Part shown: piece by piece, positions 2,526 to 39,883 of the stretch
How the letters are laid out: each line of letters opens with the position of its first letter
Numbering within the stretch: the stretch's first letter is position 1
IMG/VR virus record: IMGVR_UViG_3300049847_000163
Location: 1 to 40,754 of that record
Strand: one strand, 5' to 3'
From: a virus
DNA: 40,754 nt
Translations under genes and position numbers: made by a program
Notes under the pieces: model-generated
Databases searched by the model: none
What the model was told of the DNA's origin: nothing
Seen by the model: the letters and a program-made list of their open reading frames with translations, nothing else

Positions 2526-2729
2526 TCAGTTCGATCCCAGTTGTCGTGCTTGTGCGTCTGTGAGTATACCAGCAGTAACCAGCATATCAAGCGTGACGTA
2601 GCGGTCTTTGTACGTACCTCGTACCCCCTGAGCGACTTCTACATGCTCCTTGACTGCACCAAGAAACGACTGCATAGCCTGACTCTCATTCTGAGGTATC
2701 TGCCCCAGTCCAGGTTTATTGTTTATCAC
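2526..2729 (-). CDS. Small virion-operon protein, 67 aa
   Basis: Unrecognised. It starts on an ATG that overlaps the TGA of the upstream 559-aa gene (ATGA overlap) and ends one base before the next ATG, so it is locked into the operon by translational coupling. The sequence is soluble, with one amphipathic helix (about residues 17-33) and a C-terminal stretch (VTLDMLVTAGILTDAQARQL) that resembles a short helical docking segment. No motif assigns a function. Confidence 0.55.
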   Translation of the reverse strand: MINNKPGLGQIPQNESQAMQSFLGAVKEHVEVAQGVRGTYKDRYVTLDMLVTAGILTDAQARQLGSN

Positions 2730-4405
2730 TGTGGTTTCCCCTCAGTTAGATCATCGATACTTGTAGCCATGTGTATTTCGTATACATCTGGCTTACCCTC
2801 TACTTGCATAAACCAACGCTCCGTATCCCGGTAGAACCTTGGGAGTCTAAACGGCTCACTCGAAGTTACCTCACGAGAAAACTTAAGTTGGTCATTCACA
2901 AATAGAGAGAATATAAGTGGTAGCACAGTACCACCTTCTTGCCTATACTCGCCAGTAATCTTTACTGCTGCAAAGCTCGTGATATAAGGCATCACGAAAG
3001 CTTTACTCCGCCAGCGGTAAACTAACCTCTCAGAGCTAGCTTCCCACTCGTACAGTACGTTATCGCGGTTCTTCTGTCCGACGAAGAAGAAGTCTGTATC
3101 AGGATTTGCGTAGGCCGCCGTCGCGTAGAAGTTTAACGTCGTCAGTTTATCTCGTTGTTCTACGCCTGTAGCTCTATCGTTATAATCAAAGACGAACCCG
3201 GCCCCTTGGGGGTCAACAAGGCTGTAATCTTGCCCATGATCGGTTAGGTAGAAACCAACATAGCGCCCATCATGGATTACTCCATGCAATGTTGTCGGGT
3301 TAAATCTCTGCCACTCATCACGACTTAGTACATCACGAGTAATAACCTGTAGCCCACCGTAACCCACCCATACGAGGCCGTCAGCGCTTGCGTAAAGTAC
3401 CCCTCGATCACCGGATACCATTGAGCGCTTAGACGCACAGGGATAGGGATCAGGTAACTTTTCGATAGACAAATTCTTTGGGCTTACGCCGCTAACAAGA
3501 TAGGTGAATCCTGTGGTAGCTACAACTATTGTACTACCATATATACCTAAAGCTACTATAGGATACTCAAAAACCTTCGTATATTCAGGAGGATATGCGT
3601 GGGGCTGATATGCTTCTGATATATACAACTGATTCCCAGCAAACCCTGCTAAAAATCCTCCTGGGTGTGAAATAAGCCCCGTCATATTATGGGGTGGGGG
3701 GTACCACTGCTGTGAAGGTAGGCGTTCTAGTAGATCAATATCCAAGAAGGTATCTACATAGGATGTCTGAGAAACCAAAATCATATCAACGAATAAAATC
3801 TCTGTTGTAGATGTACCAGTCTCATATCGGTAAATTCGGATATGAGTGACATTCTCCGAAGTAGGCGCAGCAAACCCTGAAATAGTCGCTGCTTGCCCAT
3901 CCATCATACCTACAACTACAGACGGATTTGACGGTACGCCTTCTTCAGCTAGGGCTGTGACAAAGGTGTACAGGTATGCACGCTGCTTCACCGTCCCCGT
4001 ACCACCTGTACCTAGTGCTACTATGGGTGGTGTGGTAGGTGCGTCTACACCCAATGTATAAGCTTGTGAAGGGTAAGGAAGCTGTGTTGTAGCTCGGGCT
4101 AAAGTAGTAACCTTCGGCCTACCATCTCCCGTATAGTATATGCGCCCTTCAGTGTCTCCTGGAAGAAAGCTGCGTTGGACGTTCACGTCTGCATTCCAAG
4201 ATAGCCAATAACCGTTCAAATTATATATTGTTTCGATGAACCCACGACGTAGCTTCGTAGGATCAACGAGCGGGGCGCGTAAAGCCCGTATCTCTCCAGA
4301 CCACAACTTGCAATTCTCCGCAACTACAGCAGCATTCGGAGGCAGTAATCTCTGCGAGATACGCGGCGCGATCCCGCCAAAATTCTGTATGCGTAGGCTT
4401 GGCAT
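2726..4405 (-). CDS. Conserved phage structural protein, 559 aa
   Basis: The N-terminus (NFGGIAPRISQRLLPPNAA, then VAENCKLWSGEIRAL) is a signature I recognise from large virion proteins of many podovirus-like phages, usually annotated only as structural. The rest is rich in beta strands and aromatic residues with regularly spaced Gly-Tyr and Trp, consistent with a propeller-like tail or nozzle component. The C-terminal region ends in a beta-rich segment (YRDTERWFMQVEGKPDVYEI). It starts just after the TAG of the third oxygenase gene. Its exact place in the particle is not shown by the sequence; tail/nozzle is inference from size and gene order. Confidence 0.7.
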   Translation of the reverse strand: MPSLRIQNFGGIAPRISQRLLPPNAAVVAENCKLWSGEIRALRAPLVDPTKLRRGFIETIYNLNGYWLSWNADVNVQRSFLPGDTEGRIYYTGDGRPKVTTLARATTQLPYPSQAYTLGVDAPTTPPIVALGTGGTGTVKQRAYLYTFVTALAEEGVPSNPSVVVGMMDGQAATISGFAAPTSENVTHIRIYRYETGTSTTEILFVDMILVSQTSYVDTFLDIDLLERLPSQQWYPPPHNMTGLISHPGGFLAGFAGNQLYISEAYQPHAYPPEYTKVFEYPIVALGIYGSTIVVATTGFTYLVSGVSPKNLSIEKLPDPYPCASKRSMVSGDRGVLYASADGLVWVGYGGLQVITRDVLSRDEWQRFNPTTLHGVIHDGRYVGFYLTDHGQDYSLVDPQGAGFVFDYNDRATGVEQRDKLTTLNFYATAAYANPDTDFFFVGQKNRDNVLYEWEASSERLVYRWRSKAFVMPYITSFAAVKITGEYRQEGGTVLPLIFSLFVNDQLKFSREVTSSEPFRLPRFYRDTERWFMQVEGKPDVYEIHMATSIDDLTEGKPQ

Positions 4406-4407
4406 AG

Positions 4408-5028
4408 CTACCCCGAGAAGTTATTTGTTGCTGGGTTGATAAGTCCCCATATTAGCTGCATCGAGTTCCTACGTCCATTCGTAATTGGTAGTACTTGATG
4501 CGGGAAGTTCTTGTTTGAGGGGAACATGACAAACTCCCCAACTTCAGGCTTAATTTTCAACCCTTGCCTGGGAAACTCTATCTCTCCCCCACTATAGTCG
4601 TTATTGAGGTACAGCACTGTAGTGATACCCCGTTGAAAATCTACTCCTACCATAGTGCCTGTAGTCGTCTGTGCGTGGTCATCCGTATGCAATTTAATCC
4701 CCCGCCCAACAGGGTAACTGAAAAGCTCTGTATTAGTTCTAAAGGGTGTAGCAGTCGTATCGAAATTATCTCTCGCATATTGATATGCTATATCATTAAG
4801 CCGCGCAGCTAGAGGTACAGCAAAATCTGGGAATACAACAGATACAGATTGCCTTGCTTCATAATCAACTACAGCTTTCCCATCTAAACCATAAGCTCCG
4901 TGTTCTGCGTACTTCTTTGTGACCCAACACTCATCGATATAATTATTGAATAGAGCCGCGTCGAAAGCCAACTTACCACGTAGTAATGTGGTTCCTTCTT
5001 TCATCACGCTTTCAGCATAGCTAATCAT
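4408..5028 (-). CDS. 2-oxoglutarate/Fe(II)-dependent oxygenase (P4H-like), copy 3
   Basis: A 206-aa protein of the prolyl-4-hydroxylase-like 2OG-Fe(II) oxygenase fold. The iron ligands are visible as HTD in KLHTDDH and the distal His in FPHQV. The 2-oxoglutarate-binding Arg is in GRR. Between them lies the usual YLN...GGEIEFP strand pair and the KPEVGEFVMFPS strand. The ATG at 5028 overlaps the upstream TGA (ATGA) and is preferred over a TTG five codons upstream. The family hydroxylates protein side chains (commonly proline), nucleic acids or small molecules, using O2 and 2-oxoglutarate. The substrate is unknown. It is the last of three paralogous genes embedded in the virion operon. Confidence 0.85.
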   Translation of the reverse strand: MISYAESVMKEGTTLLRGKLAFDAALFNNYIDECWVTKKYAEHGAYGLDGKAVVDYEARQSVSVVFPDFAVPLAARLNDIAYQYARDNFDTTATPFRTNTELFSYPVGRGIKLHTDDHAQTTTGTMVGVDFQRGITTVLYLNNDYSGGEIEFPRQGLKIKPEVGEFVMFPSNKNFPHQVLPITNGRRNSMQLIWGLINPATNNFSG

Positions 5029-5639
5029 AAATCGAATCTCCAAGTTGTTTGTAGCAACATGCGTTGCCCTGAGACTATTGGTAGGACACCATGCTTGTAC
5101 TTGTAATGTGCAGGGAACATAACCAACATACCATACTTAGGCTCTATTCGTAGGTCGGGATTTGGGAAGTACAACTCTCCCCCCTCGAAATCAGTTCCTT
5201 GCGTGCTTAGATATAACAAAGCCACAAGTTGATTCGCCCAATTAAACTGTACTGTACCAACCCCATAGTCCATATCTGCGGGGTCTTGGTCATCACAATG
5301 GATTGGGCATCCTACTCCCTCTCCATATAGCAATACAACACTAGACTGCCGTGTAGGAGTTCTCCCCGTGTAATTATAGAAACTCTCTGCTGCGGTTACT
5401 TCTTGCTGAATCCGTTGTTCTAGTAAAGGCTTAGCAGCTAACTCCACATCATAGCTACGCCTACCACGTTCTCTACCGTTGTCCGTGCTGTAAGTACGTG
5501 ATGGCTTTTTAGTTTCCTCCCATGTCTGCTGTATTGCACTCCTATAATCGTCTTCTAGTGTAAGCATGCGTATACGAATACCATCCTTGCCATCAGGGGT
5601 AGATACGTTAAACAGTGGATTAGGCAGCGGGCGTATCAT
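5025..5639 (-). CDS. 2-oxoglutarate/Fe(II)-dependent oxygenase (P4H-like), copy 2
   Basis: A 204-aa paralogue of its two neighbours. The iron-binding HxD is HCD (in CPIHCDDQ), the distal His is in YKYKHGVLP, and the 2-oxoglutarate Arg is in SGQR. The strand GGELYFP matches GGAIEFP and GGEIEFP in the other copies. I start it at the ATG at 5639, giving [10 protein letters not shown], because copy 1 begins similarly ([13 protein letters not shown]). A TTG at 5684 would add 15 residues with no support. It overlaps copy 1 by 20 bases and copy 3 by 4 bases, so all three are translated as one unit. All catalytic residues are present, so it is probably active. Confidence 0.85.
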   Translation of the reverse strand: MIRPLPNPLFNVSTPDGKDGIRIRMLTLEDDYRSAIQQTWEETKKPSRTYSTDNGRERGRRSYDVELAAKPLLEQRIQQEVTAAESFYNYTGRTPTRQSSVVLLYGEGVGCPIHCDDQDPADMDYGVGTVQFNWANQLVALLYLSTQGTDFEGGELYFPNPDLRIEPKYGMLVMFPAHYKYKHGVLPIVSGQRMLLQTTWRFDL

Positions 5640-6246
5640 AAAAATAATAATGTCTGACAAAAGCAAATCTACCGCCAATAACAACTGGTGTTACTTGGTG
5701 GGGAAACTTGTAGTTAGATGGGTATACTAGCATCGTACCGCTTTTAGGTATGATCGATAACTGCTGCTTCGGAAACTCTATAGCTCCTCCTTCCAGATCA
5801 GGACTAACAACATAGAGTATCGCTGCTAACTGGTTGAGCAAGTGCATCACATACTTAGTCTTCCCCTGTTTTTCTGGTGCTTTATGTTGGTCATCTGTAT
5901 GAAGCCCTGAATAAGCGCCAACCCCATAGAATAAAAACTGTTCCCGGCTCTTGTACGGGAACTTACCCTCGCCCCACTGCGTAACAACTTGCTGCATCTC
6001 AGCGTCTAACGTACTAAAAATACTGACTACTAGGCTATCTCTAGTTTGTATATCTACGGAAGTTCTAAGCCGCTTACTCTCGTCCCCGCTTGCTGCATTG
6101 GGATCGAATGACAAAGCCAGCGCTGCTCCCTCTGGTAGAAAGCGCTGCGCTAGCTCTGCGTATAGATTAGCTGGGAGTGTTAGCTGCTTGTGTACAACTT
6201 CACCTTGCACCTCGTAGACTGGGTTTGGGATAGCTTGTGCCAGCAT
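5620..6246 (-). CDS. 2-oxoglutarate/Fe(II)-dependent oxygenase (P4H-like), copy 1
   Basis: A 208-aa 2OG-Fe(II) oxygenase with HTD in GLHTDDQH, the strand GGAIEFPKQ, distal His in YKFPHQVTP and Arg in IGGRF. The open frame extends upstream through the repeat tail of the preceding gene and there encodes a Cys-Asp-Ser run, but that is a frame shadow. The real start is the ATG at 6246, two bases after the TAA of the 307-aa adhesin-like gene. No clear ribosome site precedes it, so ribosomes finishing the adhesin probably reinitiate here and couple the two products. The adjacent (Val-Thr-Pro)8 tail is a plausible but untested substrate. Confidence 0.85.
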
Positions 6247-6248
6247 GA

Positions 6249-7172
6249 TTACATAGCAGCGCCAATAGCTCCACCTACGGGTGCTACAAGTCCCACAGGA
6301 GTCACAGGAGTCACAGGAGTCACAGGAGTCACAGGAGTCACAGGAGTCACAGGAGTCACAGGAGTCACAGCAGCAACAGGGGCTACAGGAGCACCACAAG
6401 ATGTATTTGCTTGCAACGCAGTACACAATGCTACCCATTGTGCCGGAGTTGCATTGTTGATGAACGCGGTAATCAGTGCATTCATATCAAGATGCAACGG
6501 ATCAGCTATAGTCCCTGTGCCTAAAATCGGTGCTAGTGCATGTGCACGGGCAACAAGCGTAGGAAATTCTGCGGGCACCCCAGGGCCAGGATTAGGTAGT
6601 GTTTGGTTCTCTACCGCGAGCAGTGAAGTAGAATCAATCCGCAGTGCAATACGGTTATTTGTATCGACATAGATAGGATCAGTTGTGCCCGGTAGTGCCC
6701 CTACAGTGAACCACTGTGTACCATTCCAATGATAGAGTATGTTAGGTACTGTTGCTGTATTGACGACATACTCAACGCAACCGCTAGGCGCTGTGTTAGG
6801 TGGAGTAGTTACTAACGCGGTATTACTAGGAGAGCATCTACCAGCAAGCGCCTTAATAATCTCATCGCCAATATACTCCTTGAACTGCTGCACATTCCAT
6901 GATAACTTTACACATGACCCTGCTGGGAAAGCCCTAGCGATCGTATTATCCTGTGCTCGTTGTACTTGTATGTTGTCATTACCTAAAGGGGTAGTAGATG
7001 TGTACTTAACAACTTCGCTGCCTACACGATCTTCGATTGTTAGATAGCAGTAGTCGCCCAACGTAAATTCAAATAGTACACCTTCACCTACACTTAAAGG
7101 TAGGATAGTGTCCCCCGGTGCTATTGGAGCACGCAAGGTAGCGGTAAGAAAATTAACTAGTCGTAGTGCCAT
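6249..7172 (-). CDS. Adhesin/fibre-like virion protein with (VTP)8 tail, 307 aa
   Basis: The N-terminus (residues 1 to about 115) aligns without gaps over the first 48 residues to that of the 413-aa protein and shares the later segment FPAGSC...VQQFKEYI, so both carry one virion-attachment or baseplate-like module. The middle contains segments typical of fibre proteins ([28 protein letters not shown]). The C-terminus is a Pro/Thr/Val-rich tail with eight Val-Thr-Pro repeats, then [14 protein letters not shown]. The tail is probably extended. It overlaps the 59-aa gene by 20 bases and is followed two bases later by an oxygenase gene. Receptor-binding or fibre function is inferred from domain style and location. 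Confidence 0.65.
6295..6366. repeat. 9-bp minisatellite, 8 perfect copies (ACAGGAGTC)
   Basis: Eight identical head-to-tail copies of ACAGGAGTC (plus strand), with degenerate partial units on both sides, encode the Val-Thr-Pro repeats of the 307-aa minus-strand gene. Identical third codon positions in every copy indicate recent expansion by slippage. The 9-bp unit keeps the frame, so copy number can vary without breaking the gene. Confidence 0.95.
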
Positions 7173-7332
7173 TTTGGTTCTCTTTTATCTGTTTCAATTC
7201 TGTCGCGATAAGAACGCTCTCTTGCGCAGCTTCTCTGCCTCGTGCTGCCCATAAACCTACTTGCGCCTCTGCAAGTTCAGTCCGTGTCTGCCATAGCTTC
7301 AATTCAAGCTCTAATTCTTTTTGCGTTTTCAT
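7153..7332 (-). CDS. Small coiled-coil protein between two adhesins, 59 aa
   Basis: The ATG at 7332 overlaps the TGA of the 413-aa gene (ATGA). The frame runs to a TAA at 7153, inside the next gene. The translation begins MKTQKELELELKLWQTRTEL and is almost wholly helical with heptad-like Leu/Ala spacing (about residues 5-50). It is charged, with no membrane segment. A gene of this type, a short coiled coil wedged between two related adhesins, also occurs at 15,390. A trimerisation partner or fibre chaperone is a reasonable guess, not shown. Confidence 0.6.
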   Translation of the reverse strand: MKTQKELELELKLWQTRTELAEAQVGLWAARGREAAQESVLIATELKQIKENQNGTTTS

Positions 7333-8570
7333 ACATTTACCATAAGTTGTATTTTATATATTGTACCGTTCACTTCAATTGGTAGATACTGTCCAGAGGC
7401 TGCCCCTGCTGTGGTTACAAGTAGGGCTGTTGTAGCGCTAGTATCATTGAATACCAACCCACCATTATCTACACGAAACCCAAAACGAGACTGGCCTTTC
7501 CATGTAAACCCCCACATACCAGTTGTATCATTATAGCTTGAGTTTAGTGCATCAATACTATTACCATTCCACTCTACTCCTAGCTTAGAGCGTAACTGTA
7601 TTAAAGCTTTAACACGTGGAATATCCGTGTCGGCTATATCACTGAAATCGATGCCAATAGCCTTAGTTATCCCTGTTTCATCAAGAGAACCTGCTCCAAA
7701 ATGTATCCCCCGCAACCATCCACAAAACTCACCTGCGGAACTACGGGGTTGCGATACAATAGCAAAGGCTGTAGACCGCTGGTTGTATTTATTCGCACCT
7801 ATTCCCGCTGGTGTTGCAGACACATTATCTGGACGGTCACGGAAGTAAGACATATACCCAATTTTTTCGTTGGGGTTATTAGAGTCCTGGCTATATACTG
7901 AAGCAGTTGCCCCGTATAAAGGAGCTAGTGCACCCGGCGCTGTCCATGCTTCACTGACGCTACCTATGATAGTACCTGTAGCTCCTACGTCTGCTCGTGC
8001 AGTAAACTTTGCGCCATAGAGAGACGCACCCCCTGAAGTACGTTTTACAGAAGCTAGAAAGCCATACTGAGATTTATCTATGGCTGTGGAATACCCGATC
8101 CATAGTCCCTTGTCTAACTGCAATAAATTATCCCCTGCTACAAGCGATGTATCCCATACAGCATCTTTGAATGCTACAGCACCGTTAAACTGATTACTCC
8201 CAACCCAAGTATTATTCCTACCTAGTAAAGTTGTGTCAATTAGAGGTTGTTGAACTGTGCACTCTTGAACCTTTTGGCATACAAAATCATCAAGGTACCT
8301 GCAAGTGATAGATACGCAAACTGAAGCCCCAGCAGGAAAGTTCTGGGTATCTCGGTAACGAGTGATAGCTAACTCACCGTCTACAATTCGTCCGCCATCA
8401 AAACGTACTTCTTCTTGTATACCGTTAGCCTCAATTATTAGGTATACGTAACTATCTACAGGTAGATTAAATTGCACTACATCTTCGAGTGCAATCTTCA
8501 TAGTTGTATCAGTATGCTGTAGAGGGCACCGTAGTATAGAGCAAGCTGCTATACATAGAACTTTTTTCAT
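7329..8570 (-). CDS. Adhesin/fibre-like virion protein, 413 aa
   Basis: The start MKKVLCIAACSILRC looks like a signal peptide but is more likely a virion module. It aligns residue for residue with the N-terminus of the 307-aa protein (shared L5, L13, R14, P16, D21-T22, then Y-x-Y-L-x-I-E). A ribosome site AAGGAA lies 5 bases upstream. Residues about 115-400 look like a tail-fibre or spike shaft and head: many Gly/Ser/Thr, SLYGAKFTARADVGATGT, and a C-terminal region ending in GQYLPIEVNGTIYKIQLMV, a style common in phage fibre ends. It is followed by ATGA-coupled small coiled-coil and second adhesin genes. Confidence 0.65.
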   Translation of the reverse strand: MKKVLCIAACSILRCPLQHTDTTMKIALEDVVQFNLPVDSYVYLIIEANGIQEEVRFDGGRIVDGELAITRYRDTQNFPAGASVCVSITCRYLDDFVCQKVQECTVQQPLIDTTLLGRNNTWVGSNQFNGAVAFKDAVWDTSLVAGDNLLQLDKGLWIGYSTAIDKSQYGFLASVKRTSGGASLYGAKFTARADVGATGTIIGSVSEAWTAPGALAPLYGATASVYSQDSNNPNEKIGYMSYFRDRPDNVSATPAGIGANKYNQRSTAFAIVSQPRSSAGEFCGWLRGIHFGAGSLDETGITKAIGIDFSDIADTDIPRVKALIQLRSKLGVEWNGNSIDALNSSYNDTTGMWGFTWKGQSRFGFRVDNGGLVFNDTSATTALLVTTAGAASGQYLPIEVNGTIYKIQLMVNV

Positions 8571-8582
8571 GTTTATTCCTTG

Positions 8583-9587
8583 CTAGATCGTCGAAGCAGC
8601 TAGGGCAAAGTATGGCCGCCACTGTACGCTTTGCCCCTCAATTGCAAAATCAAGTTGTATATTACCTAGCTTGATACCCTTATCCCATAGCTGAAGTTCG
8701 ATATTAGCAAAACCTAAAAAGAAGGCTGCTCGTACATAACCTATACCTATAGCTGGGTCATACTGTACGTTGTATAACGTAGAGTTTGTTCCTTGCTCTG
8801 TATACACATCTACGATTGTTACTTGATCTATCGGCGTGCCTAGTACCTTGAAAAAATATGTCCTGAAAGCCTCGAAAGGAACTTGCTGTATCCCACTATT
8901 ATTCACATCGAACGGGCCGACTTCACTGCTTATCGGCTCTGCCCAAGCTAGCGCTAATGGGGTAGCGGGGGGTAAAGGTACTGTGCAATCTCCCTGAACT
9001 ACTGGGGAACAACTTCCAGTAGTTACGCATGTATCTATAGTATCCGTAGCTATACACGGAACTACTCCGCATGAAGGATCAATAGCACCTAGAGGCCCTT
9101 TCCCTATAGCATCCTCACAACCAGGAGCACATGCCTTCTCGCGTTCAGTACGGCAGGCAACAACTACAGCCTCACACCTACGTATACGAAACTCTACTGT
9201 AAAACAATACTCATCGTTGATAAAAATATCACCTAGGTAATAGCCATACGGTTGGAGTAAGAAATCAGTATCCCAATAAAAACATACCTCGTTCTCGTTA
9301 TTGATTGAGAAAGCATCATAGGTCGCAATAATTACTTCGCGCCCTTTACGCAGCAGTTCAATCCGTACACAAGCACAACCAAACAATAGTTGTTGCGTTG
9401 GACTTAACAAACTTGTATTCATCTTGAACCAAGACTTTGCTACTGATGTGTCAATATCAATAATCCCACAACCGCTATACCTACGCTTTCGTGGTAAAGG
9501 GGCCGAGCGAGTAATACAACCACATAGCTGTGCTAAAGACTCCGGTGGTACAACTACTGGAAGTGGGGGAGTAATTGGAGTAGGCAT
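8583..9587 (-). CDS. Cysteine-rich virion-operon protein, 334 aa
   Basis: I do not recognise the family. The ATG overlaps the TAA of the upstream gene (TAATG), so it is tightly coupled. The protein has an unusually high number of Cys, most in residues 20-210, including CGC, CAC and a cluster ERKACAPGC...SCGVVPC. The segment 55-140 has aromatic beta-strand patterns (VCFYWDTDFLLQPYGYYLGD) and the C-terminal 110 residues are beta-rich without Cys. It lies between the connector-like and adhesin genes, so a tail or tail-adhesin adaptor is likely. The Cys may bind metal or form disulfides after release. Function is inference. Confidence 0.5.
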   Translation of the reverse strand: MPTPITPPLPVVVPPESLAQLCGCITRSAPLPRKRRYSGCGIIDIDTSVAKSWFKMNTSLLSPTQQLLFGCACVRIELLRKGREVIIATYDAFSINNENEVCFYWDTDFLLQPYGYYLGDIFINDEYCFTVEFRIRRCEAVVVACRTEREKACAPGCEDAIGKGPLGAIDPSCGVVPCIATDTIDTCVTTGSCSPVVQGDCTVPLPPATPLALAWAEPISSEVGPFDVNNSGIQQVPFEAFRTYFFKVLGTPIDQVTIVDVYTEQGTNSTLYNVQYDPAIGIGYVRAAFFLGFANIELQLWDKGIKLGNIQLDFAIEGQSVQWRPYFALAASTI

Positions 9588-11898: not shown

Positions 11899-12855
11899 TT
11901 ACTGGAAACGAACGTATGCCATCGCCAAGCCTTCGCTCTGAATGACTTTATGCCCATAGACAGTCATGCCTTGCATGTAAGTATCCCAGCTATCCTTGTC
12001 GTTATCGACAACACGGGTCTTCTCGATCTGGGCCGCAAACGCGGTAGCCCCACGCCAGCCTGCAATGATCTGGTAGCAATCAGTGCTAACTGCGGCATCG
12101 AACACCTTGCAAACATTATGTGAGATGTACACATCGAAACCAGCAATCTTCGCAGGAATTTTTCCATTGAGGACACCGTTAGACGCAATATCACAGCAAG
12201 CTCCAGCTAGTGCTGGGTTCTGCGTGATTTTTGGGCTGTTAAGCAGGTACGACTCTGCAATATCTGGTAGCACGATGAACAGGTCATTCATAGGAACACA
12301 CTGCTCTTTTAGAGTAGCGCGAATATATGTCATGACTTCCCATATGTTTGCAGAAGTGATAGACAACGGAGCGCCGACAGCACCCAAGTTGTATACACCA
12401 GACTTAACGCCTGCTTTTGCACCTTTATTACAAGGATGTGCATCAAGCGCCATCTTGCATAGAAGCTCTGCGTCGATCTCTTCTGTCATCTCGTAGGCCG
12501 CGGACTTCAGAAGTGACGACTCCCATTTAGACCAATTGCAGATTTGCTCAATATCAACTTGAGAAATCTTCACGGAGAACTCAAGCAACTGGTCGATAGT
12601 CATCGTCACAGGGCACGTATCAATCGTGTCATGTTTGATTGTGCCGTCCTTGACGTTGCGTCGTACTGTTACCTTTGGGGTACGGAAAAAAGTGATTTGG
12701 TCACCACACTTCTTCAGTTCACCCGTGTACTCAGTAGTTGTGATGTCACCCATGACTGCCGTGCAGTAAAACTGCTCGATCAAGTCCATCGAGAACATCG
12801 GAGGAATCAGGCTCCCACTGTATTGGGGGTAGCCGGATGCTGCTGGAATAGCCAT
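11899..12855 (-). CDS. Major capsid protein, 318 aa
   Basis: The 318-aa length, a strong AAGGAG ribosome site and location right after a coiled-coil scaffold candidate point to the coat protein. The N-terminus (SGSLIPPMFSMDLIEQFYC, then GDITTTEYTGELKKCGDQIT) and the segment RRNVKDGTIKHDTIDTCPVTM followed by LLEFSVKISQVDIEQI match a P22-coat-like/HK97-fold capsid group in which 'G..g.tI.i' and 'k....a..idd.d' strands surround the long spine helix. The last third (IAGFDVYISHNV...WRGATAFAAQIEKTRV...GMTVYGHKVI) is the typical closing part. It contains eleven Cys, unusual for a coat protein. Confidence 0.8.
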   Translation of the reverse strand: MAIPAASGYPQYSGSLIPPMFSMDLIEQFYCTAVMGDITTTEYTGELKKCGDQITFFRTPKVTVRRNVKDGTIKHDTIDTCPVTMTIDQLLEFSVKISQVDIEQICNWSKWESSLLKSAAYEMTEEIDAELLCKMALDAHPCNKGAKAGVKSGVYNLGAVGAPLSITSANIWEVMTYIRATLKEQCVPMNDLFIVLPDIAESYLLNSPKITQNPALAGACCDIASNGVLNGKIPAKIAGFDVYISHNVCKVFDAAVSTDCYQIIAGWRGATAFAAQIEKTRVVDNDKDSWDTYMQGMTVYGHKVIQSEGLAMAYVRFQ

Positions 12856-39265: not shown

Positions 39266-39883
39266 ATGCGCTTAGTAGCCCATAAAGAGTCAAACTCTTT
39301 TGCTGTTGTTGAAGAACTTACACCTGAAGTTCTATCTACTTATGACCCTATATTCTTGGGCACGCTAGCAGACGCTAAAGCGATGCGTAAGGTATTAGAA
39401 GCTTATATTGAGTCTCAACCAGAAGTAGAGATTACACCCATCGATTTGAAAGATATTCGCGATGATGACATCGTTGGCGCCTATATCAAGCTCCGCGACA
39501 TGCGTGACACAGCGAAGAAAAAATTTGAGTCGCGCGATGATAAATATGCCGCACGAATCGACAGCTTGCAGATGGAACTACTGCGACGCTACGAAGAGCG
39601 TGGTATTGACCAGATTAAAATCGCAGGTATTGGTACCTCATTCAAGTCTACAAAAACAGTCGCATCATGTGGTGACTGGGATGTATTCTTCTCGTGGTGC
39701 CTAGACCAAGCAGATAAATTACGCTCTGAGGGCGGCGATCCTCGGGACGTATTTGCGTTCTTCCAAAAGCGTTTGACGATTGATACAGTCAAGCAGTACA
39801 TGGAAGCACACGAGGGAGGTGTACCCCCCGCTGTGAATGTCATGCAGCAGTACACCGTGTCTGTTCGACGCTCAACTACCTAG
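39266..39883 (+). CDS. Conserved phage replication-region protein, 205 aa
   Basis: AAGGAG 6 bases before the ATG. The layout is one I associate with a widespread phage family of unknown function: a helix with KLRDMRDTAKKKFESRDDKY, then coiled-coil, a beta part (IAGIGTSFKSTKTVASCGDW DVFF with the break only for length), a helical WCLDQADKLR...FFQKRLTIDTVKQYM, and a final strand (VPPAVNVMQQYTVSVRR). Members sit beside single-strand-binding-like and polymerase genes. The name and role are not established as far as I know. It has its own promoter and operator-like site. Confidence 0.6.
   Translation: MRLVAHKESNSFAVVEELTPEVLSTYDPIFLGTLADAKAMRKVLEAYIESQPEVEITPIDLKDIRDDDIVGAYIKLRDMRDTAKKKFESRDDKYAARIDSLQMELLRRYEERGIDQIKIAGIGTSFKSTKTVASCGDWDVFFSWCLDQADKLRSEGGDPRDVFAFFQKRLTIDTVKQYMEAHEGGVPPAVNVMQQYTVSVRRSTT

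Follow-up and report, generated by a model that had tools for sequence, protein, structure and literature searches.

Tandem 2OG-Fe(II) oxygenases downstream of a proline-repeat tail-fibre gene in an IMG/VR phage genome: candidate prolyl hydroxylases of the virion

Viral and cellular relatives described so far

In aquatic phages, 2OG-Fe(II) oxygenases rank with the commonest "auxiliary" genes. Hydroxyproline is otherwise best known from collagen, from plant and algal walls and from oxygen sensing. The cellular P4Hs of Chlamydomonas, with (Ser-Pro)5 (3gze), and of P. putida, with EF-Tu (4iw3), act on prolines in proteins. The viral use of P4H has been called cryptic (PMC9301287). The P4H of PBCV-1 is active on proline-containing repeat peptides in a sequence-specific manner, but attempts to detect hydroxyproline in purified PBCV-1 virion proteins failed despite the active enzyme (PMC7019647). 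By analogy, this failure is a real caution for the locus presented here: a viral P4H need not be proof of virion hydroxyproline. Like our three oxygenases, the PBCV-1 collagen prolyl hydroxylase (vCPH, 5c5t) is a stand-alone viral enzyme of ~200 aa. It differs in belonging to a eukaryotic virus, in being a single copy with no coupled fibre gene reported, and in sharing only 16–19% identity with our copies.

For the 2OG oxygenases of cyanophages, a function in DNA repair has been proposed from their gene neighbours (PMC9146016), and a role in 2OG and nitrogen metabolism has been proposed as well, with the functions "not specifically investigated" (PMC9602691). A structural likeness to human EGLN3 has also been reported (PMC12774648). 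The phage oxygenases of phrog_61 are common in cyanophages, and genomes can hold many copies, as our window does: the cultured cyanophage S-SCSM1 has 24. They are about 24–31% identical to our copies, and their PHROGs category is auxiliary metabolism. Many phage homologues sit away from fibre genes: those of S-MbCM7 and S-H9-1 neighbour endonuclease V, that of syn9 falls between uvsX and primase, those of S-CAM1 and Melnitz are surrounded by small ORFs, and that of DLP_6 is near a DNA ligase. The oxygenase family is put to several uses. Cyanophage ACG-2014f encodes an oxygenase annotated as PiuC, flanked on one side by a collagen-repeat protein with a glycosyltransferase and on the other by a short tail fibre. 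We found no description of a link between oxygenases and proline-repeat tail genes in the open-access literature, so the novelty of such a link is unproven.

The locus and its three oxygenases

The window, meaning the whole stretch of DNA analyzed, spans 40,754 bases and is a complete viral record of IMG/VR. On the − strand, the order of transcription is terminase and portal genes, capsid gene, tail genes and then the left end. After a fibre gene come three 2OG-Fe(II) oxygenase genes, each with an ATG start: ox3 (5620–6246, −, 208 aa), ox2 (5025–5639, −, 204 aa), which is the most divergent copy, and the prolyl-hydroxylase-like ox1 (4408–5028, −, 206 aa). The gene upstream of ox3 encodes a tail-fibre-like protein of 307 aa with a C-terminal (VTP)8 (6249–7172, −), our proposed substrate. 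Directly after ox1 follows a virion protein of phrog_511, "internal virion protein" (2726–4405, −; PHROG E 3.9e-146). Along the transcript, the fibre and ox3 genes are separated by 2 nt, ox3 and ox2 overlap by 20 nt, ox2 and ox1 overlap by 4 nt (ATGA), and the phrog_511 gene begins 2 nt after ox1. Because of these junctions (+2, −20, −4 and +2 nt), we infer that all five genes probably share a transcript and are coupled in translation.

All three oxygenases passed the curated cut-off of PF13640, 2OG-FeII_Oxy_3 (27 bits), with 46.8 bits (E 6.2e-12) for ox1, 38.7 bits (E 2e-9) for ox2 and 37.1 bits (E 6.4e-9) for ox3, and no other protein of the record matched this profile. Their best PHROG family was phrog_61. 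The motifs were HTD/PHQ/GRR in ox1, HCD/KHG/GQR in ox2 and HTD/PHQ/GGR in ox3. In the alignment H114, D116, H177 and R187 (ox1 numbering) were identical in the three copies, and the iron triad H, D, H was invariant across 43 and 33 relatives in two alignments. A preliminary description of this DNA had reported three consecutive, overlapping oxygenases with an intact HxD...H...R set inside the virion operon. It had located them correctly: the reading frames, their overlaps, the motifs and the profile search all agree with it, and the surrounding genes have PHROG matches in head/packaging and tail families, as expected for a virion operon. A triplet with intact motifs in such a setting exceeds chance by far.

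Pairwise identity among ox1, ox2 and ox3 was only about 25–30%, and they are therefore ancient or separately acquired relatives rather than the product of a recent duplication. The preliminary description had also proposed a tree of the copies with phage homologues, and had argued for selection on each copy. The tree, built with 103 phage oxygenases, placed ox1, ox2 and ox3 on long unresolved branches and did not resolve the three copies. The likelihood was better when they were forced into one clade (AU p 0.896), so common descent stands unrejected. Selection on each copy is supported through the intact motifs kept at 25–30% identity, and only through these. It would be a guess that each copy has its own positions or contexts to act on, and the stepwise or multi-substrate modification put forward in the preliminary description is likewise a guess.

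The models of ox1 (AlphaFold2; mean pLDDT 81.4, pTM 0.81) and ox2 (pLDDT 73.4, pTM 0.75) aligned to solved members of the double-stranded beta-helix fold over most of their length. For ox1, the best Foldseek matches were the algal P4H with (Ser-Pro)5, the PBCV-1 vCPH in second place, PHD2 and the P. putida P4H; ranks 1–27 were all prolyl hydroxylases, as were almost all of the best 50. For ox2 the PBCV-1 enzyme (5c5t) came first, followed by the P4Hs of B. anthracis and P. putida, with prolyl hydroxylases in all of ranks 1–14 and in almost all remaining listed matches. In VIA-align, ox1 reached Z 19.3 to 16.3 with those prolyl hydroxylases. Its top matches were 4iw3 (19.3) and 3gze (18.9), over 182–185 residues and at 17–19% identity. 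PKHD-type proteins scored similarly lower down (Z 16.6–17.0; PiuC 16.6), so the match to peptidyl-prolyl hydroxylases speaks for fold kinship only. AlkB-type enzymes were not among the listed structural matches of ox1 and ox2 with either program; as the lists cover only the best matches, this is no proof against them. A profile search of PDB sequences gave the B. anthracis P4H (E 2.8e-25), and the best single-sequence PDB match of ox3 was the PKHD-type 3dkq, a weak one (E 0.08).

P4Hs have a Lys for the 2OG carboxylate, 10 residues after the distal His. All three window copies carry an Arg at this position (R187 in ox1) in place of the Lys of collagen-type P4Hs, and share it with PKHD-type enzymes (PiuC/YbiX); a Lys at +10 is present in phage relatives, for example in our loci L012 and L013. 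The models thus give good support for ox1 and ox2 as prolyl-hydroxylase-like by predicted fold, without the class-defining Lys.

The N-terminal 90 aa of the upstream fibre protein matched the tail fibre families phrog_8469 and phrog_30299. Its VTP run is encoded by a 9-bp tandem repeat of 8.6 copies (6294–6370, −), which Tandem Repeats Finder reported as perfect (100% matches). With 10.1%, this fibre had the highest proline content among the 24 structural-side proteins checked. As ox3 begins 2 nt past this gene on the same strand, the window has the layout of a proline-repeat gene followed by an oxygenase.

With respect to its relatives, the phrog_511 protein had tblastn matches in Bcep22-like, Stx-type and Microcystis phages, and together with its neighbours it places the phage among these podovirus-like phages. 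Close relatives of the window were found neither by megablast of 25 kb against phages nor in single-protein IMG/VR scans with ox1, ox3 and the phrog_511 protein. Only 1/50 whole phrog_511 records (L042) had a PF13640 match, for which reason the oxygenases are a rare insert in this podovirus group, in a variable fibre slot. In L042, this sole relative with an oxygenase, 10 bp separate the gene from a collagen-like (GPT)n fibre upstream of it. By contrast, the 28 fibre homologues in phrog_511 podovirus loci without oxygenase had 1.8–6.5% proline, and the proline repeat was absent from all of them. The preliminary description had called a triplet near tail genes unusual. This holds within the podovirus group, but not for phages at large: arrays of 2–10 oxygenases are common in IMG/VR contigs, and S-SCSM1 has four in a row.

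Proline-repeat tail genes and oxygenases across IMG/VR

To survey the gene neighbourhood of such oxygenases, IMG/VR was scanned using the aligned window oxygenases and phage relatives as query, the seeds being chosen regardless of repeats, and 80 loci were fetched (scan A3). Most of these loci had 2–10 oxygenases each. In many of them the gene before the array encoded a protein with PFF, PPFF, PHFP or PPYF repeats; one repeat protein preceding an array had fn3 domains. After dereplication of the oxygenases at 70% identity, a proline-repeat gene was present at most three genes upstream in 15 of the 23 groups with enough upstream sequence. Counted by gene position, proline repeats occurred at 18/58 upstream and 0/74 downstream positions (Fisher p 7e-8). 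A further scan (A7) gave a proline-repeat gene in 19/36 groups, with 19/91 positions upstream against 0/163 downstream; it is not independent, because its seeds include VTP-linked enzymes. As background, 24 of the 1179 ORFs in phrog_511 loci had a proline repeat.

In the reverse direction, we scanned IMG/VR for DNA able to code for (VTP)4 or (PFF)4. An oxygenase was present in 22/55 loci with in-frame (VTP)4 and in none of the 65 out-of-frame loci (p 2e-9). For in-frame (PFF)4 the count was 87/101; here the out-of-frame loci were uninformative as a control, being nearly all repeat genes cut by contig ends. Wherever a same-strand oxygenase lay within 1 kb of the repeat gene, the nearest one was downstream (99/99). 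These loci are redundant: the VTP-linked oxygenases fall into 6 clusters at 70% and 2 at 50% identity, and come mostly from one lineage, and the PFF-linked ones form 10 clusters at 70% and 5 at 50%. Bacterial genomes, scanned with a VTP-linked oxygenase as query, gave no hit.

Among tandem repeats, 47 with proline and 2 without lay in the three genes that precede the first oxygenase, versus 11 with and 16 without elsewhere (8 vs 4 in the same loci, 3 vs 12 in phrog_511 loci). The partner repeats (VTP, PFF, PHFP, APTP, PTPT and collagen GPT) have proline, and little else, in common. Collagen as the general partner proved too narrow, as other proline repeats form most of the partners.

The VTP-repeat proteins elsewhere carry tail-protein domains. 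Their repeats mostly have 31–90 VTP copies where an oxygenase is adjacent, the lowest count being 13, and 4–31 copies where there is none. The 8 copies of the window fall in the range without oxygenase, and the window repeat alone would therefore not predict one. Like the uncultured PFF and VTP phages, the window has its oxygenases downstream of a proline-repeat tail-type gene and on the same strand. It differs from the other VTP loci in combining three oxygenases with a short repeat in a podovirus, whereas those have one oxygenase and longer repeats. In PFF arrays there are up to 9 oxygenases, with DUF6065 genes interspersed.

Two further observations were made on these contigs. One contig, L218, had a VTP gene of 71 copies as well as a PFF gene of 34 copies; an oxygenase lay 287 bp from the former. 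The arrays of up to 10 oxygenases after fn3-type PFF/PPFF-repeat proteins in L098–L177 and L299–L416 (e.g., L101:4881-12651) also contained other genes of ~240 aa.

Candidate substrates and further observations

We infer proline as the target and the upstream fibre as the substrate, and consider it probable, with clear room for doubt, that ox1–3 hydroxylate prolines of the phage's own tail fibre. The argument for prolyl hydroxylation is statistical and draws on the proline shared by the partner repeats together with the prolyl-hydroxylase fold. The three proteins would be peptidyl-prolyl hydroxylases using Fe(II), 2-oxoglutarate and O2. Produced from the late transcript that also encodes the fibre (6249–7172), they would hydroxylate its prolines, most likely in the C-terminal (VTP)8, during or just after synthesis. 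The hydroxyproline might stiffen the extended repeat or provide a site to which further decoration is attached. If this holds, bacterial viruses produce proteins with hydroxyproline, and the maturation of their tail fibres would need O2 and 2-oxoglutarate from the host.

The preliminary description had already favoured modification of a virion protein over metabolism, which the peptidyl-prolyl hydroxylase fold and the position after proline-repeat tail genes support. It had named neither proline, nor the fibre, nor the (VTP)8 repeat, and in these points its claim is sharpened here. The modified residue could still be another one (Asp/Asn, Lys or Thr), or the modified protein another one (the phrog_511 protein or another fibre). 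We regard this as unlikely, but as a credible alternative: the collagen lysyl hydroxylase LH3 was among the fold matches of ox2, and the window encodes three fibre-like proteins (6249–7172, 7329–8501 and 8583–9587) and a protein with a (GTD)4 run, so that each of the three enzymes could have a target of its own. Against it, prolyl hydroxylases head the fold searches of both ox1 and ox2, and proline is nearly all that the recurrent partner repeats share.

A target among host small molecules or nucleic acids, with the operon setting only the late expression, would fit the published proposals of DNA repair (PMC9146016) and of 2OG and nitrogen metabolism (PMC9602691), the classing of phrog_61 as auxiliary metabolism in PHROGs, and the phage homologues located beside uvsX, primase or endonuclease genes. 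We consider it improbable, as the fold matches are peptide hydroxylases, with AlkB-type enzymes missing from the matches listed, and as metabolism would not be expected to produce a positional, strand-specific tie to proline-repeat genes. Finally, fibre slots could be a hot spot both for gene insertion and for low-complexity repeats, with no functional link between the two. The slot upstream of phrog_511 is indeed variable (a reverse transcriptase in Aeromonas phage phiARM81mr, an HNH endonuclease in Vibrio phage K249), and the oxygenases are a rare insert in the phrog_511 group. Such a coincidence is nevertheless very improbable in our assessment: repeats without proline are not enriched beside the oxygenases (2 vs 47), the repeat genes are always upstream of the oxygenase, and the fibre homologues in loci without oxygenase have no proline repeats.

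Beyond this locus, we tentatively propose that prolyl hydroxylation of proline-repeat tail fibres may be a widespread kind of phage virion modification that has not been described before, a proposal about which we are less confident than about the window itself. A lineage-specific repeat (VTP, PFF, PHFP, APTP or collagen GPT), together with one downstream hydroxylase or an array of them, would mark the receptor-binding apparatus, in a pattern that is possibly combinatorial and set by the array. The positional rule gives many phage oxygenases a concrete candidate substrate, namely the proline-repeat tail protein encoded just upstream.

In S-SCSM1, four tandem oxygenases (SSCSM1_240–243; L501:12681-17145) lie directly before two tail-fibre genes, and the short tail fibre SSCSM1_245 has RQPR/NFRQP repeats. 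A virion proteome is available for this phage, with 45 proteins detected by LC-MS/MS (PMC9602691). In phiARM81mr, the slot upstream of phrog_511 (L008:6828-8461) holds a 23S-IVS-type protein together with the reverse transcriptase, which judging from the annotation is probably part of a diversity-generating retroelement.

Several other proteins of the window stood out. The protein at 1898–2590 (−), which carries the (GTD)4 run (DNA repeat at 1920–1957), has 18% Gly and may be a second virion protein of low complexity. Cysteine numbers were high for virion proteins in the fibre-region protein at 8583–9587 (−; 16 Cys) and in the major head protein (11899–12855, −; 11 Cys). At the right end, on the strand opposite to the virion operon, a protein encoded at 39266–39883 (+) matched phrog_13900, "minor head protein".
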